22,549 nucleotides of DNA. It comes from a virus. Shown here piece by piece: positions 927-22,549 of this stretch (its first letter is position 1; every line of letters starts with the position of its first letter). The translations under genes and the position numbers were made by a program. The stretch lies in IMG/VR virus record IMGVR_UViG_3300034094_000119, positions 1 to 22,549 of that record; one strand, written 5' to 3'. The notes beneath the pieces were generated by a model that was given only the letters and a program-made list of their open reading frames with translations, was not told where the DNA came from and made no database searches.

Positions 927-1189
927 AGCCGTTCCGCGTATCGTCGGATTGGATTTGGTACGCACATGGACCGGCTGCTGACGGTCGCCAGCCATCGGCT
1001 GTTGCCCTGTGCGAACTAGCATCCGAGAAGGACTATGCCCTAGTAGCGGATGCGTCGCTGGTGCAGGAGATCGTCAGCGTGGCCGAACTGTACGCAGGGT
1101 CATACGGCGGGGACAGCGAGGATCGGGCCATGGCAAGGCGGGCCGCCAAGGTTATTGAGCGGGCCAAGGCGTGGCTGGCGGATTCCTGA
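923..1189 (+). CDS. Small hypothetical protein, tandem paralogue 2
   Basis: An 88-residue protein starting at the ATGA overlap with the previous gene, with GGAGG just upstream inside that gene. It shares FRVS.DW near its start, an LV.EI segment in the middle and RAK.WL at its end with the 621-926 product, so I read the pair as diverged paralogues. No known domain is recognised. The 25-bp stem-loop repeat begins 2 nt after its stop codon. It probably belongs to the operator-controlled unit that starts at the promoter before 621. Confidence 0.7.
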   Translation: MKPFRVSSDWIWYAHGPAADGRQPSAVALCELASEKDYALVADASLVQEIVSVAELYAGSYGGDSEDRAMARRAAKVIERAKAWLADS

Positions 1190-1191
1190 AT

Positions 1192-1216
1192 TGCGCTCTT
1201 CACCTTAGAGACGGTC
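1192..1216 (+). repeat. Post-stop stem-loop repeat, copy 2
   Basis: Identical over 25 bp to 292-316 and exactly 900 bp downstream of it. It again starts just after a stop codon (TGA 1187-1189) and here ends 2 nt before the ATG at 1219, so it also forms the leader of the next gene. CTCT and AGAG can pair around a 7-nt loop. Confidence 0.75.
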
Positions 1217-1218
1217 TA

Positions 1219-1467
1219 ATGGGACGCATGAAAGACCTGCACATCACGATCCACAACGGCGGCGATGAGGCTGTCGCTGCGGTTGAGCGGATAGGCAAGG
1301 AGTGGCGGGAGCAACTGGAGCAGGCAGCATCCGAGATCGAAGGAATGCGACTCACCGACGCGGAGCGGGAGGCCATCAAAGAGGCGTGCGACGAGGGGCG
1401 TTGGTATCCGAAGGACTACCATCACATTCACACGATGCGGGCCTTGCTTGCACGAATGACGCTATAG
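1219..1467 (+). CDS. Small hypothetical helical protein
   Basis: An 82-residue protein, acidic and mostly helical by appearance. It opens with MGRMKDLHITIHNGGDEA, continues with a charged helix (RIGKEWREQLEQAASEIEG) and ends in DYHHIHTMRALLARMTL. A second in-frame ATG follows at 1228. No clear Shine-Dalgarno is present, because the 25-bp repeat occupies the leader; the stem-loop may bring a start signal closer or control it. No family is recognised. Confidence 0.55.
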   Translation: MGRMKDLHITIHNGGDEAVAAVERIGKEWREQLEQAASEIEGMRLTDAEREAIKEACDEGRWYPKDYHHIHTMRALLARMTL

Positions 1468-1524
1468 CACCAGAAGACGGCCGGTCGTTCCAGATTCCAG
1501 AATGAAATACAATGATCCAGCGAT

Positions 1525-1574
1525 CCCGGCGGGCAGGCACCGCACCGATAACGCGGCAAGCCGGCCCCGCCGGG
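1525..1574 (+). terminator. GC-rich stem-loop, possible terminator
   Basis: CCCGGCGGG (1525-1533) pairs perfectly with CCCGCCGGG (1566-1574) around a 32-nt loop, followed by GTCGTTCT. It lies in the 175-nt gap between the genes at 1219 and 1643. The gap also has a lone TACAAT at 1508-1513 without a convincing -35. The U-rich tail is weak, so termination is only possible. Confidence 0.4.
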
Positions 1575-1642
1575 GTCGTTCTAGACAAGACGCAAACCGT
1601 CGAAACGTGACAGTTTGTGCGCTATCGAAATCAGAGACAGTC

Positions 1643-1912
1643 ATGGACGATGAAACGATCATTGCCGTTGCTCGCAGGAGATTCCAGCCAATCGCCGGAT
1701 CGCGGCTCCTGTCGGGCACATGCAGCCGGTGCGGGATGCAGGTGCGAGTCACCGTCGAAACTGCGGCGAAGTCGATCACCAGCGACTACCACCGCATATG
1801 GTGCCTAGACTGCTCGCCCGGTGGCGGCGGCTCATACGGCGGCTCGCCGCAAAGCCGGGCCGACAACGCATATCACGGTGGCCGATACCATTCGGCCGAG
1901 TGGGAAGGCTAG
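1643..1912 (+). CDS. Small zinc-ribbon-like protein
   Basis: An 89-residue protein. GTCSRCGM (cysteines near residues 25 and 28) and WCLDC (near residues 51 and 54) form a CxxC-CxxC pair typical of a zinc ribbon, followed by a glycine- and serine-rich tail. The ATG at 1643 has only a weak purine tract upstream (GAGACAG). A longer frame reaches an ATG at 1502, but that stretch holds a strong hairpin and reads like untranslated DNA. The stop codon is followed at once by an 18-bp palindrome. Such small zinc proteins are common in phages and may bind nucleic acid; the function is not known. Confidence 0.6.
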   Translation: MDDETIIAVARRRFQPIAGSRLLSGTCSRCGMQVRVTVETAAKSITSDYHRIWCLDCSPGGGGSYGGSPQSRADNAYHGGRYHSAEWEG

Positions 1913-1935
1913 TTCGCTCTAGAGCGAACAGACGG
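1912..1935 (+). repeat. Post-stop palindrome, diverged copy 3
   Basis: A perfect 18-bp palindrome, GTTCGCTCTAGAGCGAAC (1912-1929), shares its first G with the stop codon of the preceding gene and is followed by AGACGG. It resembles the two 25-bp copies in CGCTCT, AGAG and ACGG and occupies the same place directly behind a stop codon. Confidence 0.6.
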
Positions 1936-1937
1936 CT

Positions 1938-1953
1938 ATACCCAAACGGGTAT
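1938..1953. promoter_or_regulatory. Third 6-4-6 palindrome, possible operator
   Basis: ATACCC AAAC GGGTAT is a palindrome with the same 6-4-6 layout as GTATCC GATC GGATAC (559-574) and GTATCC GACT GGGTAC in the promoter at 324-351. Here no good promoter overlaps it. A further hairpin follows (TAGCGGCG pairs with CGCCGCTA) before the HNH gene. Confidence 0.4.
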
Positions 1954-2004
1954 GACCCTATAGCGGCGAGAGACGGCGCTTGACGCCGCCGCTACGGTGG
2001 CGGC

Positions 2005-2334
2005 ATGTTCGGCTGGCTTCGCAAATCCTTCGACGCATTCGGCCGCGACTCTCGCTGGCCCGCCGTCCGTCGCCGCCACATTGAGCGGGTCCCGACATGC
2101 GCCGCCTGCGGTGCATCCGAGAACATCGAGGTTCATCACGTGATTCCGGTGGGCCACGCTCGCCGAATCGGCCGCGCTGAATTGGAGTTGGACCCCCTCA
2201 ATTTGATCAGCTTGTGCGGACCGCCTCGCGATTGTCACTGGTGGTTAGGCCACGCATGCAACGACCGCAAGTGGCGGCCGGACGTGCGCAGGCTCGCCGC
2301 GGCGATTCTTGAGAGCGAAGTGCGGGAGCAGTGA
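2005..2334 (+). CDS. HNH endonuclease
   Basis: A 109-residue HNH nuclease. Cysteines C32 and C35 (TCAAC) with later cysteines around C71 and C77 hold the structural zinc, EVHHVIPV (H44, H45) is the catalytic strand, N66 lies in DPLNLISLC, and CHWWLGH supplies the last histidine. HNH proteins of this size in tailed phages often assist the terminase or act as small nucleases. The start has GGTGG 4 nt upstream. Its TGA is followed directly by the ATG of the CAP-domain gene. It is one of two HNH genes in this region (see 3960). Confidence 0.85.
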   Translation: MFGWLRKSFDAFGRDSRWPAVRRRHIERVPTCAACGASENIEVHHVIPVGHARRIGRAELELDPLNLISLCGPPRDCHWWLGHACNDRKWRPDVRRLAAAILESEVREQ

Positions 2335-2700
2335 ATGTACAACGTCACGAAGCTCATTGCTCTGCACAACGCCGCTCGCTCAAAGAGTTGGTGGAAGCTC
2401 AAGCCGTTGAGCGAAGACGCCGCGCTCATGCACTATGCGCAGGAGTGGGCGGCGACGATGGCGAGGCGACGGTCCATGACGCACTCGTCAATGCGCGACA
2501 TTCTCAAGCTCGGGTACAGCCGCGCTGCGGAAAACATCGCATGGAATCAGAAGAGCGAAGAGGATGTCATGAACGCGTGGCTGTGGAGTCCGGGCCATAG
2601 GTGGAACGTCATGAGCAGCGGGTCAAACGTCATTGGCGCCGGCGTGTGCGACGCTGGCGGCGGCCCGTATTGGTGCGTCTGTTTCGCGAGGGTGCCGTGA
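2335..2700 (+). CDS. CAP/SCP-domain protein
   Basis: A 121-residue protein that is nearly all CAP domain (cysteine-rich secretory protein, antigen 5, PR-1; SCP). Visible signatures are HNAAR at the start, LMHYAQEWAATMA, MTHS (H50), AAENIAW (E66), WLWSPGHRWNVM (H88) and the end IGAGVC with PYWCVCF. No signal peptide is present, so it stays inside the cell unless released at lysis or built into the virion. CAP proteins bind sterols, lipids or act as peptidases in other settings; their use in phages is not established. The start follows the HNH stop with no gap, and the stop overlaps the GTG of the lipid desaturase gene, so the three genes are coupled. Confidence 0.85.
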   Translation: MYNVTKLIALHNAARSKSWWKLKPLSEDAALMHYAQEWAATMARRRSMTHSSMRDILKLGYSRAAENIAWNQKSEEDVMNAWLWSPGHRWNVMSSGSNVIGAGVCDAGGGPYWCVCFARVP

Positions 2701-3218
2701 TTTACGTGATAGCGGCGTGGCTTGTCGCCGACATGATCAGCGGCGTCGTGCATTGGTGGGAGGACCGATACGGGAATCCAGAGTGGCCGATCCTCGGGAC
2801 GTTCGTCGTGAAGCCCAACATTCGGCACCACCTGTCTCCGCGCGAGCTTGCGGGGCTTGGGTACTGGGAGCGCAACTGGACGACGATTCTCCCGGCACTG
2901 ATCGCAGCGTCTGCCTTCTACGCTTGCGGCTGGACGTTCGCCGCGACCGTAGCCGCGATGGTCAGCCAAGCGAACGAGGTTCACGCGTGGTCGCATCGCA
3001 GATGCTCGCGACCCGTGCGGGGCCTACAGCTACTCGGGGTTCTTTGCTCGCCAGAGCAGCACTCAGAGCATCATCGCCGCCCGTTCGACAGAAACTACTG
3101 CACGATGTCGGACTGGATGAACCCATTGCTGTCGGCATTCGGTGTCTGGGAGGCTTTGGAGTATTGCGTTTTCGTGGGCATTGGCGTGAGACCACGAGAG
3201 GAGAGAGCGACCGCATGA
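2697..3218 (+). CDS. PEDS1/CarF/Kua-type lipid desaturase
   Basis: A 173-residue membrane protein of the TMEM189-CarF-Kua lipid desaturase family. These enzymes make the vinyl-ether bond of plasmalogens in animals and myxobacteria. The protein has eight histidines in the family pattern: H19 (GVVHWW), H44-H45 (NIRHHL), H96 and H100 (NEVHAWSH), H122 and H125-H126 (EQHSEHH), presumably binding two irons. Hydrophobic stretches near residues 1-18 and 63-92 suggest membrane helices. GTG 2697 is chosen because it overlaps the stop of the CAP gene and has a GAGGG-like site upstream. At 173 residues it is close to the core length of the family. A desaturase next to a CAP protein in a phage region is unusual; the substrate here is unknown. 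Confidence 0.85.
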   Translation: MIYVIAAWLVADMISGVVHWWEDRYGNPEWPILGTFVVKPNIRHHLSPRELAGLGYWERNWTTILPALIAASAFYACGWTFAATVAAMVSQANEVHAWSHRRCSRPVRGLQLLGVLCSPEQHSEHHRRPFDRNYCTMSDWMNPLLSAFGVWEALEYCVFVGIGVRPREERATA

Positions 3219-3307
3219 TCAACAGATTCATCGCTGTGTGTGCCGTGTGTGCTGTTGCGTTTGCAACGGCGATCTGCTGGTACGTGATTTACTGGCAGGC
3301 AACCTGA
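3215..3307 (+). CDS. 30-residue single-span membrane peptide
   Basis: A short frame beginning in the ATGA overlap with the desaturase stop, with AGGAGAGAG well placed upstream. The peptide is one hydrophobic helix (IAVCAVCAVAFATAICWYVIYW) after a basic MINR start, with three cysteines. It could be a subunit or regulator of the desaturase, or part of the lysis system. The strong ribosome site and coupling are the main support. Confidence 0.55.
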   Translation: MINRFIAVCAVCAVAFATAICWYVIYWQAT

Positions 3308-3321
3308 CTGAAGGGCGTCTT

Positions 3322-3567
3322 ATGGAATCGCTTGCTTTGACGGCATCGGTGGCGTTTCTGGTGGCCGCTGTCTTGGGGCCGGCTGCGGCTGGGTTTTCCT
3401 TCTTTGGCTATGTCTACGTTGGAGGAACTATCGGCGTTCTGGCCGTCGGCTTCGGGGTGTGGTGGACGCTCGTGGCCGGCTGGCCGGCGGGCGTGGTTGG
3501 GGCCATATCTGTATGCCTTGGCCTATGGGCCGCTCTGCAAGCATGCCGGGCAGATAGGCCAGAATAA
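3322..3567 (+). CDS. Small membrane protein, holin-like
   Basis: An 81-residue protein that is hydrophobic almost throughout, with probable helices near residues 5-25, 27-48 and 55-74 and a short charged tail (CRADRPE). GAAGGG lies 6 nt before the ATG. Size, two or three membrane spans and a place after the structural genes fit a holin, but no family signature can be seen and no endolysin is recognised nearby. It may equally belong with the desaturase and the 30-residue peptide. Confidence 0.6.
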   Translation: MESLALTASVAFLVAAVLGPAAAGFSFFGYVYVGGTIGVLAVGFGVWWTLVAGWPAGVVGAISVCLGLWAALQACRADRPE

Positions 3568-3597
3568 AGGGGCCGAACTCTCAGGAGATGTCCATCC

Positions 3598-3957
3598 ATG
3601 TCGTCAGAGTCTTTGATCCGCCGCAATGTCCGCAGAGTGAGTATCACTCTTTTCTCAGCCTCATCCGCCTCCTCGACCGTCAGGCTTGACGACATGTCTG
3701 GCGGTGTTGTGTCTCTCGACACAATGCAGACTGCAAGCACTTCGCTTCAGATGTGGGGATCGACTGATGAGGCAGGCCCTTATCGCAGGCTCTACAAAGC
3801 GGATGGCAGCGTTGCTGACCTCACCCTTGCCCCGAGTACAGCGGATGGCCGCATCTACTCTCTCCCCGATGAGGTGTTCGCCCTTCCGTTTCTTCGACTG
3901 GTTGCGGGCAGTGCGGCCGGCACCGGGGCAGTTGGCATTGTGTCGCTGAAGAGTTGA
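3598..3957 (+). CDS. Hypothetical beta-rich phage protein
   Basis: A 119-residue protein with a good AGGAGA ribosome site. It is rich in Ser, Ala and Thr and alternates like beta strands. The last part, DEVFALPFLRLVAGSAAGTGAVGIVSLKS, ends in the strand pattern seen in small phage structural or decoration proteins that pair with virion proteins. I cannot name a family. It is followed after 2 nt by the second HNH gene, so the two are likely co-transcribed. Confidence 0.65.
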   Translation: MSSESLIRRNVRRVSITLFSASSASSTVRLDDMSGGVVSLDTMQTASTSLQMWGSTDEAGPYRRLYKADGSVADLTLAPSTADGRIYSLPDEVFALPFLRLVAGSAAGTGAVGIVSLKS

Positions 3958-3959
3958 GT

Positions 3960-4271
3960 ATGCCCAAGCGTGTAGCACTGTGGGTTCCGCCGCGGCCGAG
4001 CCATAAGATCAAGCGGGCAGAGAGCCGGCCGAACTCATACCAGAGAGGCTACTGTGACTCCCGGCATTTCGCATGGCGGAAGGCTGTGCTTCTGAGAGAC
4101 AACTACATCTGTTGCGATTGCCGCCGGCTCTGCTCTCAGAAGTCTCAGGCTCATGCGGATCATGTCATCCCGGTGAAGCTGCGGCCAGACTTGCGGTATG
4201 TGGTAGAGAATGGGGCATGTCGCTGCCACTCGTGCCACAGCCGGAAGACCGTCAGGGAAAACGGCGGCTGA
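3960..4271 (+). CDS. HNH endonuclease, second
   Basis: A 103-residue HNH nuclease. YICCDCRRLC (C51, C54) and CRCHSCHSRKT (C88, C91) form the zinc clamp, and HADHVIPVKL (D67, H68) is the catalytic strand; the ENG before CRCHSCH is typical of the phage families found beside terminase genes. The basic N-terminus (PPRPSHKIKRAESR) may help bind DNA. The ATG at 3960 is 2 nt after the previous stop. It differs enough from the HNH at 2005 to be a separate family member, not a recent copy. Confidence 0.85.
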   Translation: MPKRVALWVPPRPSHKIKRAESRPNSYQRGYCDSRHFAWRKAVLLRDNYICCDCRRLCSQKSQAHADHVIPVKLRPDLRYVVENGACRCHSCHSRKTVRENGG

Positions 4272-4298
4272 GAAATCGCGGGTATGGGCAAGATGGGA

Positions 4299-4384
4299 GG
4301 GGGGGGTCAAAAGCTACGGCCCCCCTGAGGAAAACCATATGTGATTGCCACGCCGGCGCGTCCGCGACTTTTCGTAGGGGGGGG
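4299..4384 (+). promoter_or_regulatory. Two G8 tracts and a C6 tract in the ParB leader
   Basis: G8 at 4299-4306 can pair with C6 at 4320-4325 over a 13-nt loop. A second G8 at 4377-4384 is the only possible Shine-Dalgarno for the ATG at 4393 and could pair with the same C6. The two pairings exclude each other, so the leader could switch between an exposed and a hidden ribosome site. This is a structural inference from the sequence only; the first hairpin could also be a terminator for the HNH unit. Confidence 0.35.
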
Positions 4385-4392
4385 TTTTTGGC

Positions 4393-4983
4393 ATGAAAAT
4401 ACGGGACCGCATACGCGAGCTTCGGCGGGTCCGCGCGGGCGACCTGACTCCGAACCCACGCAACTGGCGAACGCATCCCAAGGCTCAAGAGGAGGCCCTG
4501 AAGGGCATCCTCGGGGAAATCGGCTACGCCGATGCCCTGCTCGCACGCGAATTGCCCGACGGATCGCTCATGCTCGTGGACGGCCACCTCCGGGCCGGCG
4601 CGACCCCGGATCAGGAAGTACCCGTTTTGATTCTCGACATCACGGAGGCGGAGGCCGACAAGCTCCTGCTCTCGCTCGACCCGCTCGCGCAGTTGGCGGA
4701 GACGAACGCGCAGGCTCTGGAAGGTCTGCTCCGCGATGTGCAGACGGGCGACTCCTCGCTCGCCTCGATGTGGGAGGATTTGGCAAAGGAAAACGGGCTG
4801 CTGGAAGGCGGCGATGTCGAGGTCAAGCAGGTCGATGCCAAGGCGCCGCCAAAGATGGCGTGGGTTTTGGTCGGCGTGCCGACTGTTCGATACGGCGAGA
4901 TTCAATCGGCTGTCGATGCGATTGCGGCGGTGCCCGACGCGACAATCCTGAGTACCGTGAATGACGGCGCCGACAAGGACTGA
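4393..4983 (+). CDS. ParB/sulfiredoxin-like domain protein
   Basis: A 196-residue protein with an N-terminal ParB-like nuclease/CTPase fold. Signals are the family opening IRDRIRELRRV, the motif LTPNPRNWRTHPKAQEEAL (residues 18-36), IGYADALLARELPDGSLMLVDG and the ParB-type motif GHLRA (64-68). The C-terminal half is acidic and without a recognisable domain. In phages this domain is often fused or adjacent to DNA methyltransferases, and here the next gene, overlapping by 23 nt, is a Rossmann-type protein, so the two probably form a split version of that arrangement. The start follows a G8 tract. Confidence 0.85.
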   Translation: MKIRDRIRELRRVRAGDLTPNPRNWRTHPKAQEEALKGILGEIGYADALLARELPDGSLMLVDGHLRAGATPDQEVPVLILDITEAEADKLLLSLDPLAQLAETNAQALEGLLRDVQTGDSSLASMWEDLAKENGLLEGGDVEVKQVDAKAPPKMAWVLVGVPTVRYGEIQSAVDAIAAVPDATILSTVNDGADKD

Positions 4984-5602
4984 CAACGCTCTGCTCAAGA
5001 GCAAGCTTGAACTGCGGCGTCACGCGCTGCGGCGATACCACGCGGCCGGCGACATCCGTGTCTTCGACTGTTGCCAAGGCGGCGGCGTCATATGGTCGCG
5101 GCTCAAGGCCGAGTTCCCGGTGACGAGCTACTGGGGCGTCGATGTGAAGCCGAAGCGCGGCCGGCTCGCGGTGGACTCGCGGCGGATCGTGTGCCAGCCG
5201 GACCTGCGGTGCAACGTCATCGACATCGACACCTACGGCATGCCGTGGGATCACTGGGAGGGTCTGCTGCCGAACGTTGTCGAGCCGACGACTGTGTTCA
5301 TGACCATCGGCACCGCGACCCGCGGGCGAGGAACCGGCATGAAGATGCCGAAGACCGTGCTGCGGTCGCTTGGGATTCCCGGCGACTGGCCGCTGTCGCC
5401 GGCGTTCACGGAGTACCTTGTCGGTTTGTCTCTCAATCACTTCCTGTCGCTGGAGCCGGCCGGCGGCCATCGCGTTTCTGAGGTGTGGGAATCGACATCC
5501 GGATTCAGGACGCGATACCTCGCTGTTCGCATCGACAAGCCGACTGAGACTCCCCCTGCTCCGCCGCCGGCCACCCCCGCCGCGAAGCGCCGCGCGAAAT
5601 AG
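4961..5602 (+). CDS. Rossmann-fold protein, possible SAM-dependent methyltransferase
   Basis: A 213-residue protein. RVFDCCQGGGVIWSRL (residues 33-48) resembles methyltransferase motif I, in which a glycine-rich loop binds S-adenosylmethionine, and SYWGVDVK (56-63) fits the acidic end of strand 2. No DPPY or other DNA-methylase catalytic motif is obvious, so the target is unclear and it could be catalytically altered. The tail is Pro- and Lys/Arg-rich (PPAPPPATPAAKRRAK) and probably disordered. It overlaps the ParB gene by 23 nt. The ATG at 4961 has only a weak site upstream, which suggests coupling to the ParB gene. Confidence 0.6.
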   Translation: MTAPTRTDNALLKSKLELRRHALRRYHAAGDIRVFDCCQGGGVIWSRLKAEFPVTSYWGVDVKPKRGRLAVDSRRIVCQPDLRCNVIDIDTYGMPWDHWEGLLPNVVEPTTVFMTIGTATRGRGTGMKMPKTVLRSLGIPGDWPLSPAFTEYLVGLSLNHFLSLEPAGGHRVSEVWESTSGFRTRYLAVRIDKPTETPPAPPPATPAAKRRAK

Positions 5603-5614
5603 CCTTCAGGCTAT
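5599..5614 (+). terminator. Stem-loop over the stop codon
   Basis: ATAGCC TTCA GGCTAT, a perfect 6-bp stem with a TTCA loop that includes the TAG stop, followed by ATCTCTCC. It closes the 2005-5602 gene block. Confidence 0.45.
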
Positions 5615-5674
5615 ATCTCTCCGGGGGCCGCCGGCGACCCTGCGAAGCCGGCTCCTCTGAGGCACTGCAAGCAC

Positions 5675-5693
5675 GGCCCGCGGCCTCCGGGCC
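5675..5693. terminator. GC hairpin in a 234-nt gene-free stretch
   Basis: GGCCCG CGGCCTC CGGGCC is a 6-bp perfect stem. The stretch 5603-5836 has no credible gene; it holds this hairpin, a second T-run/A-run pairing near 5732-5755 (CTTTTC with GAAAAAG) that could terminate in both directions, and the first promoter cassette. Confidence 0.35.
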
Positions 5694-5764
5694 ACCCTAG
5701 CGAGTCCGGGCGGCTCCGCCGGCATTCTGGAGGCTCTTTTCTGCGCGAAAAAGCTGCCAGCCTG

Positions 5765-5824
5765 CGAACCTTATTATCGGCATTCGCGTATAACCTATGC
5801 GGTGAGGGCGGTGGTCGCCCCCGC
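5765..5824 (+). promoter_or_regulatory. Promoter plus 5' hairpin cassette 1
   Basis: CGAACC (5765-5770), 18 nt, TATAAC (5789-5794, within GCGTATAA), then a hairpin from 5799 to 5824: GCGG with CCGC, a 3-nt bulge, GGGCG with CGCCC. GAGGAGG and the ATG at 5837 follow. This is the most diverged cassette upstream of the -10 (TTCGCGTATAA). Confidence 0.7.
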
Positions 5825-5836
5825 GAGGAGGTTGCG

Positions 5837-6016
5837 ATGTCTGCTCTGAGGGGTTTTGCGGCGTGGTTCGGGTTTGATCGGCATGTCGATGCCGTGGTTG
5901 GCATGGTTCGATTCGACTACGCCGCGGAGGTTGCGAGGGTCAACGCCCTCTACGCCGTTGACCGGGACGCTTGGCGGGCCGCGCGGGCCGCGCTGTGGCG
6001 TCGGGCCGGTCGGTGA
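5837..6016 (+). CDS. Small hypothetical protein, 59 residues
   Basis: A 59-residue frame directly behind promoter cassette 1, with GAGGAGG 6 nt upstream of the ATG. The sequence starts MSALRGFAAWFGFDRHVDAV and ends with a run of Ala, Arg and Trp (WRAARAALWRRAGR) that looks like one amphipathic helix. No family is recognised. It is the only gene of its unit that I can support; a stem-loop at 6064-6095 and cassette 2 follow. Confidence 0.65.
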   Translation: MSALRGFAAWFGFDRHVDAVVGMVRFDYAAEVARVNALYAVDRDAWRAARAALWRRAGR

Positions 6017-6063
6017 CGAGACACGGCTTCCGGCTGTTTTGGCGAAAGCCACGAAGAAGCCAC

Positions 6064-6095
6064 GGGCGGGTGCTAATGCCGGATAAGCCCCGCCC
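6064..6095 (+). terminator. Probable terminator of unit 1
   Basis: GGGCGGG (6064-6070) pairs with CCCGCCC (6089-6095), followed by the pyrimidine-rich CTCCTTCTT. It lies just before promoter cassette 2. Confidence 0.5.
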
Positions 6096-6112
6096 CTCCT
6101 TCTTGAAGCTCG

Positions 6113-6161
6113 CGAACCAATTACTGGCAGGTGCGTATAATCTATGGCGGGAGTGACCGCC
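6113..6161 (+). promoter_or_regulatory. Promoter plus 5' hairpin cassette 2
   Basis: CGAACC (6113-6118), 17 nt, TATAAT (6136-6141, perfect -10), then GGCGG (6146-6150) pairing with CCGCC (6157-6161). The 17-nt spacer ends in GGCAGGTGCG, identical to cassette 3. Confidence 0.8.
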
Positions 6162-6186
6162 GGAAAGAAACGGGAGGTGACGAGTG

Positions 6187-6462
6187 ATGAATCAGTTCGA
6201 CTTCTGGATGATCATGGCGTCGTGTGACCGCAAGGGACCGCTCAAGAAGGCCGGGTTTCGCCCGGATCAGATTTATCGGAAGCTCGCCGGTTACAAGGTG
6301 TACGGCCGGAACCGCTACCCCCGGTATCGGTACGAGGCTGCGGCTGGCTTTGTCGATGCCCCGCTGGGGCGCGACGCGATCAACGCAGCGGAGGCCAGTG
6401 TCCGCGAGAGGTTCTCCGGCAGCGGTGTCTCGATCAGCGTGAAGTACGTCTGCCGCGACTGA
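6187..6462 (+). CDS. Hypothetical protein, 91 residues
   Basis: First gene of unit 2, behind GGGAGGTGA. ATG 6187 is preferred; an in-frame GTG lies at 6184. The N-terminus is MNQFDFWMIMASCDRKGPLKKAGF, followed by a Tyr- and Arg-rich middle (YGRNRYPRYRYEAAAGF) and an alternating end (SGVSISVKYV). Basic and compact, without a known domain. A strong perfect 10-bp stem-loop follows its stop (6471-6497), which may lower expression of the next gene or protect the upstream mRNA. Confidence 0.7.
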   Translation: MNQFDFWMIMASCDRKGPLKKAGFRPDQIYRKLAGYKVYGRNRYPRYRYEAAAGFVDAPLGRDAINAAEASVRERFSGSGVSISVKYVCRD

Positions 6463-15130: not shown

Positions 15131-15355
15131 ATGGCTATGGAGGTTCACAGCATTGACCGTAGCGAGGCATGGAACAAGAAAGCCGACTGCTACGTGGTGA
15201 AAAACAGCGGCGTCCCGGTCGGGCTTCTGGAGAAGCAGCGCGGCTCGCCGTGGAAGGCATACGTCGGGGTCGGCCACGGGAGCCGGTTCGTCGGCTCTTC
15301 ATACGAAGGCCGCGGGCACGCCATCGACCTGATTGCAAGGGAGGTAGCACAGTGA
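15131..15355 (+). CDS. Hypothetical protein, 74 residues
   Basis: Behind GGGAGG; a second in-frame ATG is at 15137. Strands DCYVVKNSGVPVGLLEK, PWKAYVGVGHGSRFVG and a last helix (GHAIDLIAREV) form a compact unit. The ending W.AYVG...RF.GSSYEGRG.AI resembles small phage proteins with a beta hairpin followed by a helix. The stop overlaps the GTG of the gamma-glutamylcyclotransferase gene, so both are likely translated together. Confidence 0.65.
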   Translation: MAMEVHSIDRSEAWNKKADCYVVKNSGVPVGLLEKQRGSPWKAYVGVGHGSRFVGSSYEGRGHAIDLIAREVAQ

Positions 15356-15738
15356 ACAATCGAGTTTTCGTCTACGGCACGCTCATGTCTGGCTTCGGCA
15401 ACAACCGGCTCATGCAGGGCCGGCTGGTTGGCCGGGCCACGACTGCGGGCATGCTCTACAACCTCAACGGCTTCCCCGGCCTCCGTCAGGACGACGGACA
15501 CGGGACCGTCTACGGCGAAGTATGGGATATCGACGATGCGTCGCTCGCGGCCCTCGACCGGCTGGAGGGCGTCGCGGTCGGCCTCTATGACCGAATCCGC
15601 GTCGTCGCCAATGTCGAGCGTCACGGCAGCGTGGAAGCGTGGGCTTACCAGATTTCCCAGCGGCATACCGTCGGCAGGCAACTGGTGCCCAACGGCGACT
15701 GGGCCGGAATGCGAGGCGACTCCGATGACGCCGCATGA
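15352..15738 (+). CDS. Gamma-glutamylcyclotransferase-like (AIG2/GGCT) protein
   Basis: A 128-residue protein of the AIG2/GGCT family. VFVYGTLMSG (residues 5-14) is the substrate-binding loop, TTAGMLYNLNGFPGL and GTVYGEVWDID follow, and LDRLEG gives the catalytic glutamate E72; LYDR and EAWAY complete the fold. Family enzymes cyclise gamma-glutamyl amines or peptides to release 5-oxoproline. It uses GTG 15352, coupled to the preceding gene, with GGGAGG 7 nt upstream. Two genes on, in the next unit, lie an amidoligase and a class II glutamine amidotransferase. This trio is known as a conserved neighbourhood for making and breaking isopeptide or gamma-glutamyl bonds. Confidence 0.88.
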   Translation: MNNRVFVYGTLMSGFGNNRLMQGRLVGRATTAGMLYNLNGFPGLRQDDGHGTVYGEVWDIDDASLAALDRLEGVAVGLYDRIRVVANVERHGSVEAWAYQISQRHTVGRQLVPNGDWAGMRGDSDDAA

Positions 15739-15982
15739 CCTATACGTGGCCGATGCGAAGTACGCGCACCAGACGCACAGACCGCGCGTGCTGGTCCGCT
15801 GTGCCAAGTGCGGGCACCTCGGCATCGGCATGATCGAGACGGCCGGCGACCGCGTCATCGCCCGGAGGTATGACACGGAGTTCGACACCGGCTGGTGGTG
15901 GGGCTTCGACGAACTGAAGCTGCTAGGCATGCCGACGGCCTGCCCGGCAGCGGGGCGCGAGGCTGGAGGCCACGCCGCCTAG
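15725..15982 (+). CDS. Small zinc-binding-like protein, 85 residues
   Basis: Overlaps the GGCT gene by 14 nt. It starts MTPHDLYVADAKYAHQTHRP, has a CAKCGHLGIG knuckle (two cysteines and a histidine), strands VIARRYDTEFDTGWWWGFDE and an Ala/Gly-rich tail with a third cysteine. The WWWGF segment is unusual. A zinc or partner-binding role is possible. Its stop lies inside a stem-loop (15974-15990). Confidence 0.65.
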   Translation: MTPHDLYVADAKYAHQTHRPRVLVRCAKCGHLGIGMIETAGDRVIARRYDTEFDTGWWWGFDELKLLGMPTACPAAGREAGGHAA

Positions 15983-15990
15983 CCGGCGGC
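15974..15990 (+). terminator. Stem-loop over the last stop of unit 9
   Basis: GCCGCC (15974-15979) TAGCC GGCGGC (15985-15990); the loop includes the TAG stop codon. The 81 nt to cassette 10 contain no gene. Confidence 0.5.
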
Positions 15991-16070
15991 TTCCGGGACG
16001 GCCAGAGACTCCGCCCTTCCTACGGCCAGCCAGCGGCCACGGCAGCAAAAGAAAAAAACGAACCGACGAC

Positions 16071-16124
16071 CGAACCCTTTATCGTCAGTTGCGTATAATC
16101 GGTGTGGCGGGCATGGCGCCCGCC
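16071..16124 (+). promoter_or_regulatory. Promoter plus 5' hairpin cassette 10
   Basis: CGAACC (16071-16076), 17 nt ending TTGCG, TATAAT (16094-16099, perfect -10), CGGTGT, then GGCGGGC (16106-16112) ATGGC GCCCGCC (16118-16124). GGGAGG lies directly behind the stem. Confidence 0.82.
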
Positions 16125-16138
16125 GGGAGGACACGAAG

Positions 16139-17023
16139 ATGGCACTTCGCTTTGCAGTCGAGATTGAAACCCACATGCCGGTCGGTTCGGTCAACCGCGG
16201 CCCCCACGGAAACGGCGCTCCGGTGCCGTGGCTCCCGGCGGGCTGGCTCGCGGACGCTGACCCTTCGATTGTCCCGCCCAACAGCGGGCGGTTCGGCGTC
16301 GAGTTCGTCTCGCCGATCCTCGACGGGGCCGATGGCCTGCGTCAGCTTCACGCGGTCGTCGCCGAGATCAAGGCTCGCGGCGGTCAGGTCAACGCCTCGT
16401 GCGGCCTTCACGTTCACATCGACTTCGACAAGAGCAACAAGGCCGCAAAGCGAAAGCTGGCGCAGCTTGTCGCGAACCACGAGAAGGCGCTGTACGCGGT
16501 CACCGGAACCCTCTCTCGCGAGCGCGGAGTCGGCGGCCGGTACGGAACCCACTGGTGCAAGTCGATCAAGCAATACGGGAGCGCCGGGCGGGCGATCCGG
16601 GCCTCCGAGTCTGATCGGTACCACTTGTTGAACCTGAAGACCGGCCGGAAGCCGACCGTCGAGTTCCGCGTCTTCGGCGCGAGCCTCAACGCGGTGAAGA
16701 TCAGCGCGTGGGTCCGGCTCTGCGTCGGGCTGGTGGAGAAGGCTGTCGAGTCCTCCGCTCCGGTGCCGTGGAACAACCCCGCCAAGGCGGGAGGCTTGTT
16801 CCGGACCAACGGTGCCGGTGAGAAGGAAGTCGCTCGGCTCGTCTTCTCCCTCGGCTGGACTTATGAGGGGTTCGGAACCCGGAAGTACGGCCGGAAGAAG
16901 TTCGGGGCGCTCGGGGCCGACAACCTCGACTCCGATGTCCGGGAAGTCTTGCGGCTCGCCCGGAAGTATGACGCCGCGTCCGCTGCCGCCGAAGGCGGCG
17001 GCGGCGACGGCGGGCAGGGCTGA
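16139..17023 (+). CDS. Amidoligase family protein (glutamine-synthetase-like fold)
   Basis: A 294-residue putative amidoligase, an ATP-dependent carboxylate-amine ligase of the glutamine-synthetase-like fold. FAVEIET (E8, E10) is the typical metal-binding start, GVEFVSPIL (E55) and GLRQL follow, ASCGLHVHIDF (88-95) is the family HxH motif, and YHLLNLKTGRKPTVEFRVF (E175, R177) closes the active site. The family forms amide bonds between a carboxylate and an amine, often with a glutamine amidotransferase that supplies ammonia, which is exactly the next gene. The Gly-rich tail (AAAEGGGGDGGQG) is probably disordered. The substrate is unknown; cell-wall peptide, protein or small-molecule targets are possible. 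Confidence 0.88.
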   Translation: MALRFAVEIETHMPVGSVNRGPHGNGAPVPWLPAGWLADADPSIVPPNSGRFGVEFVSPILDGADGLRQLHAVVAEIKARGGQVNASCGLHVHIDFDKSNKAAKRKLAQLVANHEKALYAVTGTLSRERGVGGRYGTHWCKSIKQYGSAGRAIRASESDRYHLLNLKTGRKPTVEFRVFGASLNAVKISAWVRLCVGLVEKAVESSAPVPWNNPAKAGGLFRTNGAGEKEVARLVFSLGWTYEGFGTRKYGRKKFGALGADNLDSDVREVLRLARKYDAASAAAEGGGGDGGQG

Positions 17024-17053
17024 TAAGCAAAAACCAAGAAGGAGGGCTTCGCA

Positions 17054-17701
17054 ATGTGTGGCGTGTTCGGTTTCGTGTCAAAGGGCAACAAGCGTGTAGA
17101 CCTTGCGGTTCTCAAGCAGATCGCACGGGTGACGGAGCTTCGCGGGCCTCACGCGTGGGGCATGGCGTGGGTGGACCGCCGCGGCAAGGTGCGGACCTTC
17201 AAGCAGCACGGCCGCGTGTCGAGTTCGCTTGGCCTGCTCGGCATGGCAGCGGGTGCGGAGATGCTGATCGGCCACTGCCGGTACGCGACTCACGGCGACC
17301 CCGCGAACAACCTCAACAACCACCCGCACGACGGCGGCGACTCGTGGGTCGTTCACAACGGTGTGATTCACCACTACGAATCGATTGTCAAAAAGCACCG
17401 GCTGCGAATGCAGACCGAATGCGACAGCGAGGTGATTGGCCTCATGCTCAAGAAGTTTCGCGGCAAGCCGATGAACCGGATGGTCCGGGCATGCAGCGAA
17501 GCTATGGGCGTCAGCCCGTTCGTGTCGCTCGCACTGTGGCCGGACCGGCTGATCGGCGCGCGGGCCAACGGCCAGCCGCTGCACATCGGAGAAACCGCCG
17601 GCGCGTTCTGGCTGGCTTCCCTGCGGCACGGCCTGCCGGGCAGTGTCAGCGAGTTTCCGGAGGGCGAGGTGTTGGAGTTCGGCGGGCGCGGTGCGGCCTA
17701 A
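17054..17701 (+). CDS. Class II glutamine amidotransferase
   Basis: A 215-residue Ntn-hydrolase glutaminase domain (GATase type II). After removal of Met1 the nucleophile Cys2 is exposed (MCGVFGF). Further motifs are RGPHAWGMAW (R30 region), GHCRYATHGD (73-82), NNHPH, VVHNGVIHHY (N102, G103) and TECDSEVIG (D124), all as expected for glutamine binding and hydrolysis. No synthetase domain is attached, so it must deliver ammonia to a partner, most simply the amidoligase upstream (30 nt apart, AAGGAGGG site). Length and motifs are complete, so it should be active. Confidence 0.9.
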   Translation: MCGVFGFVSKGNKRVDLAVLKQIARVTELRGPHAWGMAWVDRRGKVRTFKQHGRVSSSLGLLGMAAGAEMLIGHCRYATHGDPANNLNNHPHDGGDSWVVHNGVIHHYESIVKKHRLRMQTECDSEVIGLMLKKFRGKPMNRMVRACSEAMGVSPFVSLALWPDRLIGARANGQPLHIGETAGAFWLASLRHGLPGSVSEFPEGEVLEFGGRGAA

Positions 17702-20665: not shown

Positions 20666-21148
20666 ATGGGCAAGCGAGGCCGTCGGCCAGAGCCGACGAT
20701 TCTGAAGATCGCCAAAGGCAACCCCGGCAAAAGGGCGATCAACCACAACGAGCCGAAGCCGGCCAGTGACGGCATCTCACCGCCCGACTGGGTGACCGGC
20801 AAATCTCTGGACAAGTGGAACGAGCTTGTCCCGAAGCTTCTCGGCATGGGCGTCATGACGAACGCCGACATCGACACCGTTGCCCGCTACTGCTCCATGC
20901 ACGAGCAGTACCTGAAATACCTTGATCAGGTCCGTCGCGGGCTTGACGTTCTTGTTATTCGTGATGACTCCGGCAAGGTGAAGTACATGCAATCCACGCC
21001 GGCGGCGACCATGATGGCGAAGCTCGCGGCTTCGATGCTCCGCATCGAGCAAGAGTTTGGCTTGACTCCATCGTCACGGAGCGGCTTGAGTGCCTCGCAA
21101 TCGCAGCAACAAGACGAGCTTGACGACTTCCTCAAGCGAAACGCTTGA
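20666..21148 (+). CDS. terS: Phage terminase small subunit (P27 family)
   Basis: A 160-residue P27-family small terminase, the DNA-recognition component of the packaging motor. The basic start GKRGRRPEPTILKIAKGNPG with KRAINHNEPKP is typical, followed by PPDWVTGKSLDKWNELVPKL, a helical centre (ADIDTVARYCSMHEQYLKYL), and the conserved end TPAATMMAKLAASMLRIEQEF with GLTPSSRSGL. The ATG has CGGAGG upstream. The terL start lies inside its last 59 nt, in another frame, so the two are translated together. Length and pattern match the family. Confidence 0.92.
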   Translation: MGKRGRRPEPTILKIAKGNPGKRAINHNEPKPASDGISPPDWVTGKSLDKWNELVPKLLGMGVMTNADIDTVARYCSMHEQYLKYLDQVRRGLDVLVIRDDSGKVKYMQSTPAATMMAKLAASMLRIEQEFGLTPSSRSGLSASQSQQQDELDDFLKRNA

Positions 21149-22549
21149 CGACGAAGGCGGCGACTTCGACCCTGCCGCCGCCAACCGCGTGTGCCGCTTC
21201 TTTGAGGAGATGCTTCGGCACTCCAAGGGCGACCTCGCCGGCCAGCCGTTCTATCTCATGGACTGGCAGCGGAAGATGCTCCGCGAGCTTTTCGGAAGAA
21301 AGAATCCCGCCACGGGCGTTCGCAAGTACAGAACTGCCTACATCGAAGTCCCGAAAAAACAAGGAAAATCGACCACGCTTGCCGGAATTGCGCTCTACAT
21401 GCTCGTCGCTGATTCTGAAGCGGGCTGTGAGTGCTACGGTGCGGCGAGTGACCGTGAGCAAGCGGGAATTATCTACAGAGAGGCCGCCGCGATGGTGCGA
21501 GCCTCCCCTGCTCTGTCGAAGCAGCTAGAGGTCATCGACAGTCGCAAAACGATCCTTCATCGCAGGAGTAATTCTTTCTATCGCGTACTTAGCGCTGACG
21601 CATTCAGGGCGGAGGGCTTGAACATACATGCCCTCTTATTCGACGAACTGGGTTGCGCCCCCCGGCCTAGCGGCTGGGGGGCGCGACCCAGAAAAACCTG
21701 CACGCACAACGCGACCGCCGTTTATGGGACGCACTCCGTTACGGCGGCGCCGCGAGGAAGCAGCCGCTTCTCCTGTCCATCTCCACGGCCGGGTTTGATC
21801 GCCGGTCGATTTGCTGGGAGCAGCACCAGTACGCGGAAAGGTGCCTTGCCGATCCGGAGTTCGATCCGTCGTTCTACCCGCTGATCTACGCTGCGCCGCA
21901 GGACTGCGCGACCGACGGATCGTGGAAAGAGGAGCGGGTTTGGAGGATGGCGAACCCAAGCCTCGGCGAGACGATCACCGTCGAGTCATTTGCCGCGGAT
22001 GCCAGAGAGGCCGAGCGGAGTCCGACCAAGCTCAACTCTTTTTTGCGTTACAGGCTCAACGTCTGGACGACCCAAGATAATCGCTGGTTCAAGCCCGAAA
22101 CGTGGCAGTTGGGGAACCAGCCGCTGCGGCCGTTCGACGGCCGACCCGTCTACGCCGGCCTCGACCTCGCGACCACGTATGACCTGACGGCGATGGTGCT
22201 GGTCTGCCCGGACGCCACCGACGGCTCGATTGATGTGCTGCCGTTCTTCTGGATACCGGAGGCGAACGCCGTAGAGCGGATCAACCGGGACAAGGTGCCG
22301 TATGACGCGTGGATACGCGACGGCCACCTGCGGACCACGGAGGGGAACACTACCGACTACACGATCCTGCACAGGGACATCGTGGAAATCTGCCAGAAGT
22401 ACGGCGTGCGTCAGCTAGGAGTGGACATCAGGTTCAACGCGCAGATGCTGGCGAACACTCTGCAAGGGGAGGGGGTGGATGTGAGAGGATTTGCACAAGG
22501 CGGTCGCACCATGACTGGGCCGGCTCGTGCGCTTGAGAACCTTGTCCAA
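21090..22549 (+). CDS. terL: Phage terminase large subunit, interrupted by a 50-nt hairpin gap, 3' end outside window
   Basis: Large terminase (ATPase plus nuclease), the motor that cuts and packages DNA. GTG 21090 is used, GGAG 8 nt upstream. The first 187 codons hold WQRKMLRELFG, the Walker A-like motif VPKKQGKST (88-96) and Walker B ALLFDE (181-186) and end in CTG (Leu187, 21648-21650). Then 50 nt (21651-21700) interrupt the gene. From 21701 the frame two bases on reads HAQRDRRLWDALRYGG, the coupling motif LLSISTAG, and the nuclease start YAGLDLATTYDLTA without any stop up to the window end (283 codons). Without rescue the zero frame ends at 21884 and the upstream product lacks the rest of the motor. 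Sequence beyond the gap is intact, so the gene seems to be kept functional. Confidence 0.88.
21648..21700 (+). other. 50-nt hairpin gap in terL, candidate translational bypass element
   Basis: Bases 21648-21667 pair with 21672-21691: a 20-bp stem, CTGGGTTGCGCCCCCCGGCC with GGCTGGGGGGCGCGACCCAG, two G-U pairs and the loop TAGC. AAAAAC follows, then CTG (21698-21700). CTG also stands at the left base of the stem. Take-off CTG, 47 nt, landing CTG gives a 50-nt gap. In the resumed frame a TAG at 21668-21670 lies in the loop, so that frame cannot be entered before the stem. No related copy is seen elsewhere in the window. Confidence 0.6.

Follow-up and report, generated by a model that had tools for sequence, protein, structure and literature searches.

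The window analysed here, i.e., a whole IMG/VR virus record of 22,549 bases, encodes at 2697..3218 a member of the lipid desaturase family PF10520 that falls within a supported phage clade. We consider it fairly probable that this is an auxiliary gene of the phage, encoding a membrane-embedded, histidine-liganded di-iron oxidoreductase, which would desaturate acyl chains of host phospholipids in late infection. We refer to the phage side of the PF10520 tree as N-type. The original prediction had placed the protein with the plasmalogen-forming enzymes CarF/PEDS1 and had tied it to its CAP-domain neighbour; neither part was supported, while the phage origin, the histidine pattern and the gene overlaps were.

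Gene row of the window and family assignment

The region is viral, with a LamG/tail-like fragment at the left end of the window and both terminase genes near the right end. The desaturase lies in a coupled row whose order is HNH, CAP, Lipid_desat, 30-aa peptide, 81-aa hydrophobic ORF and 119-aa unknown. The genes referred to below are:

2005..2334, + strand: HNH endonuclease-like gene, 5' of CAP; ortholog in the related phage contig L193 (88% over 95 aa)
2335..2700, + strand: CAP-domain protein, 121 aa (PF00188 6.6e-15; 56.4 bits vs cut-off 21.1)
2697..3218, + strand: phage N-type Lipid_desat (PF10520) protein, 173 aa (Pfam match; AlphaFold model)
3215..3307, + strand: single-helix membrane peptide, 30 aa; homologue in L193
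3322..3567, + strand: hydrophobic ORF, 81 aa; no family match, missing in L193
3598..3957, + strand: unknown-family protein, 119 aa; homologues 3' of the peptide in L193 and 5' of the desaturase in L124 (the latter judged by eye)
20666..21148, + strand: terminase small subunit (PF05119 9.1e-21; phrog_83 1e-35)
21090..22549, + strand: terminase large subunit in two frames, running off the window (PF03354, phrog_9)

The desaturase starts with GTG in a 4-nt overlap with the CAP stop TGA, and the peptide starts with ATG in a 4-nt overlap with the desaturase stop TGA. Both overlaps had been predicted, and the two neighbours are real genes: the CAP-domain protein matches its Pfam profile, and the alignment score of the peptide with its L193 homologue is reached by 0/2000 shuffles.

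With regard to family, the 2697..3218 product matches PF10520 (Lipid_desat) with an E-value of 7.3e-41 and a score of 140.5 bits (cut-off 26.4). Its histidines at 19, 44, 45, 96, 100, 122, 125 and 126 are exactly those listed by the original prediction. Among 105 distinct full-length relatives (about 30-60% identity) these eight histidines are invariant, such that the pattern is not due to chance. The same holds for Asp23, Asn41, Asn93, Cys135 and Asn142, where it has to be considered that the HWxED and NE..H motifs were part of the search patterns while Asn41, Cys135 and the H..HH motif were not.

The AlphaFold2 model, computed from a 20-sequence alignment, is confident and all-helical (pLDDT 92, pTM 0.86). 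Among solved structures only those of Scs7p, which is a membrane-bound di-metal hydroxylase of fatty acids, clearly stand out (Z 6.6, rmsd 4.0, 138 residues); the next entry reaches Z 2.4. Since the Scs7p score is middling, we take this fold match as consistency and not as proof. Among viral models, a Harvfovirus Lipid_desat protein matches best (E 3.6e-6). A Foldseek search against the PDB gave no match at E<0.001, and a sequence search of the PDB gave no credible one. A di-iron site would fit both the histidine set and the Scs7p match.

The Scs7p match, together with a weak FA_hydroxylase profile match (22.4 bits vs cut-off 31), also speaks for an activity other than desaturation, i.e., that of a lipid hydroxylase or of a different di-iron oxidase acting on lipids. 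The PF10520 score is, however, far above the FA_hydroxylase score, and both characterised PF10520 members (PEDS1, FAD4) desaturate. We thus regard hydroxylation as unlikely, albeit the most likely of the rival explanations, and desaturation as the preferred reading.

Some further features of the window are listed for completeness. The phrog_9 profile matches of the large terminase end at 330 and restart at 410, so that there is an interruption or a sequencing error in this gene near 21.66-21.95 kb. A promoter search near 1000-6200 gave no result. Between 6131 and 17759, the + strand holds 10 copies (one mismatched; 0.68 expected) of the 10-mer RTGCGTATAA, located between short genes and inside longer repeats of 48-51 nt, some with a common CGAACC upstream; these repeats are possibly a repeated promoter or operator. 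Finally, genes similar to gamma-glutamyl cyclotransferase, amidoligase and glutamine amidotransferase lie near one another at 15352-17701 and form a glutamyl-amide cassette.

Comparison with CarF/PEDS1 and other desaturases

We compared the window protein with what is known of plasmalogen desaturases. Mouse PEDS1 needs the eight histidines, D100 (its mutation causes total loss), F118 (the alanine mutant has 6% activity) and a ninth histidine, H131 (7% left), whose CarF counterpart H113 is essential (PMC8960569, PMC9131029). The phage protein shares with CarF/PEDS1 (TMEM189) the Pfam family and the order of the eight histidines, and it has the essential Asp, i.e., Asp23, located four residues after H19, corresponds to D100. 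Unlike CarF/PEDS1, it comprises 173 aa (vs 270-281 aa) and is without the N-terminal part.

The differences continue at the two remaining positions. At the F118 site, three residues before the HH pair, the window protein has Asn41, and Asn is found there in 59/59 distinct viral sequences. At the ninth-histidine site, nine residues after HH, it has Leu54, and none of the 59 viral sequences has His. PF10520 proteins obtained by profile searches of genomes, mostly an unbiased Planctomycetota draw with a few from genomes known to hold an N-type copy, show the Phe in 20/38 and the ninth His in 15/38 cases. The NCBIfam CarF equivalog NF045946 matches along its C-terminal part (2.6e-22) and scores 79.5 bits vs a cut-off of 500, which also penalises a shorter protein.

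This is also reflected in the maximum-likelihood tree (IQ-TREE, 96 rows, plant FAD4 sequences left out, support given as UFBoot/SH-aLRT). Therein, the Phe-type PF10520 proteins from Planctomycetota genomes and human TMEM189 split off at 100/100, with the window protein outside this PEDS1 clade. The TMEM189 sequence used agrees in length (270) and at all eleven published residue positions; since the genome sequences have the same residues, the PEDS1 clade would stand without it. Furthermore, alphaproteobacterial and plant homologues without the ninth His failed to replace CarF (PMC9131029).

Given Asn41, Leu54, the low CarF score, the separate clade and this failed replacement, we do not file the protein as PEDS1. 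A true PEDS1/CarF that makes the plasmalogen vinyl-ether bond in an ether-lipid host, for which the common family, the eight histidines, the essential Asp and the C-terminal CarF match can be put forward, is next in likelihood after hydroxylation and improbable. As the best reading of the gene, a plasmalogen function is ruled out. An alignment scan of IMG/VR with planctomycete PEDS1-type sequences found no PEDS1-type copy in viruses; the scan is pattern based and as such no proof of absence.

A separate observation concerns the bacterial side of the family. PEDS1-type proteins in which Phe precedes HH, mostly with all nine histidines, are encoded by about 20 of 294 Planctomycetota genomes (L161-L179). 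The bacteria listed with CarF in a 2022 review are mainly myxobacteria, Leptospira and a few Alphaproteobacteria (PMC9131029), which makes these planctomycete genomes candidate aerobic plasmalogen makers.

The plant desaturase FAD4, which produces phosphatidylglycerol with 16:1 delta3-trans chains, is of the same Pfam family, has the eight histidines and, like the phage protein, misses the ninth. It differs at Asn41, where PEDS1 and FAD4 are said to share a conserved Phe (a comparison that follows the published statement and not FAD4 sequences). FAD4 requires the thiol protein PRXQ (PMC12456178).

Phage-borne lipid desaturases as such have precedents, i.e., the vFADs of cyanophages and of a sea-ice phage, which are proposed to alter host membranes (PMC7300359, which cites Roitman 2018 for the cyanophage work). 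Unlike the N-type proteins, these vFADs are compared with stearoyl-CoA desaturase (delta9/delta6 type), which has another histidine layout and belongs to another family. A literature search, with most subscription papers outside its scope, found no paper that deals with phage desaturases of the PF10520 or plasmalogen type. As far as the literature searched shows, the known phage lipid desaturases are only of the stearoyl-CoA type.

Phage clade, distribution and selection

In a scan of IMG/VR, relatives with 30-70% identity turned up at 67 loci, and an alignment-based scan yielded at least 184 stretches encoding relatives. One relative is from a lytic phage that has been cultured: Erythrobacter phage vB_EliS-L02 encodes, between phoH and portal, the N-type Lipid_desat protein UIS25202.1, which is annotated as 'hypothetical'. 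It is 38% identical to the window protein and branches outside the main phage clade, where its placement is unsure. The paper on this phage lists auxiliary genes and nowhere mentions a desaturase.

Within the tree, the window protein is part of a clade of 32 phage rows with support 99/91. This clade also contains two rows from planctomycete MAGs, of which L073 is probably a prophage, judged by eye from its phage-like gene layout, while L069 is too short to judge. For ten pairs of relatives, dN/dS ranges from 0.07 to 0.20; nine of these are phage-phage pairs, and in the tenth a phage locus is set against a probable prophage locus of a planctomycete MAG.

N-type relatives are also found on bacterial chromosomes, which would be expected if the gene were host DNA that had ended up in the contig by mistake, or a passenger in decay. 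Against this stand the 99/91 phage clade, the low dN/dS, the presence of terminase and tail genes within these 22.5 kb, and the fact that every invariant residue is intact; we find this explanation hardly credible and the least likely of all. Host contamination, which the original prediction had named as a refutation to be checked by phylogeny, is mainly refuted by the clade and the selection measure. That is, judged from the sequences, the desaturase is a phage gene under purifying selection and not a recent host contamination, and the claim of a phage-borne gene is borne out by the cultured phage as well. Among the neighbours of chromosomal N-type genes, no gene family is common beyond 2/58, and a plasmid search for desaturase relatives gave no match.

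For the host of the window's phage, the large terminase finds its best matches at 44% identity among named phages and at 46% in a Planctomycetota genome. At such identities, a planctomycete host is a lead only.

Several relatives are located among virion genes. At L133, the order is major head/protease, decoration, Trypsin_2, desaturase and then tail fibre, with comparable layouts at other loci. This suggests that the desaturase is co-expressed with virion genes. For the window's own desaturase, late expression is likewise what its position would imply.

Neighbouring genes and proposed function

The CAP neighbour was assessed from both sides. The related phage contig L193 (1-1260) aligns with the window at 2047-3957 and holds HNH, CAP, peptide and the 119-aa protein, while the desaturase is exactly absent. 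Its CAP is 75% identical to that of the window and overlaps the peptide directly, through GTGA. At this locus, the two differ by the desaturase gene itself, within the overlaps, and so provide a clear-cut case of a phage cargo gene that one contig has and the other lacks, be it by gain or by loss. CAP is present in 5/49 of the desaturase-bearing records examined, and PF10520 in 0/20 of the other records with the window's CAP type. A CAP structure predicted from one sequence was useless (pLDDT 42).

Two records point the other way. In L129 (6815-9379), a CAP that is 53-56% identical to that of the window is followed by a 260-aa protein, the desaturase and, with a 4-nt overlap, a patatin-like phospholipase, a row that is possibly a lipid-modifying cassette. 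In L130, CAP is about 1.2 kb from the desaturase on the opposite strand. Pairing and proximity make a loose CAP-desaturase preference possible.

Based on L129 and the three overlapping genes of the window, one could regard CAP, desaturase and membrane peptide as one lysis or envelope module. We give this little credence, and less than a true PEDS1, as L193 does without the desaturase and both counts are low. A general CAP-desaturase module is ruled out by the same three results, and the CAP-desaturase link is mostly incidental, in contrast to the functional tie that had been proposed. Nothing was found that would link the gene to virion lipids, as had been suggested; by its terminase and tail proteins, this is a tailed phage.

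More generally, the genes 5' of the desaturase vary by lineage and encode trypsin-like, papain-like, Tat-signal-like or membrane-anchored CxxC proteins. The last is found directly 5' of the desaturase in the group L049, L051-L059 and L061 and is kept in 11/11 members, where it overlaps or abuts the desaturase and is translationally coupled to it in most. It shows a weak thioredoxin match (phrog_22, 2.7e-4) with weak Pfam support and is absent from the window. By analogy to FAD4 and its PRXQ, the CxxC protein is a possible redox partner, which we note as a lead only.

For the preferred reading as an acyl-chain desaturase, we propose the following course. The gene would act as mobile cargo that slots between translationally coupled genes. 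Its product, a small integral-membrane di-iron enzyme, would desaturate acyl chains of host phospholipids in place and, late in infection, alter the physical state of the host membrane, presumably to the benefit of the phage.

More tentatively, and with clearly less confidence, the N-type proteins may constitute a third functional class within PF10520, distinct from both PEDS1 and FAD4, that makes an as yet undescribed unsaturated or oxidised host phospholipid. In some lineages the enzyme might be driven by a co-translated thiol-redox partner, and its expression with virion genes might bring about a late membrane change.

With its diagnostic Asn and its own clade, this widespread branch of phage proteins in the plasmalogen-desaturase family is a candidate enzyme class. 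Its cultured member in Erythrobacter phage vB_EliS-L02 puts both the chemistry and the role in infection within direct experimental reach.
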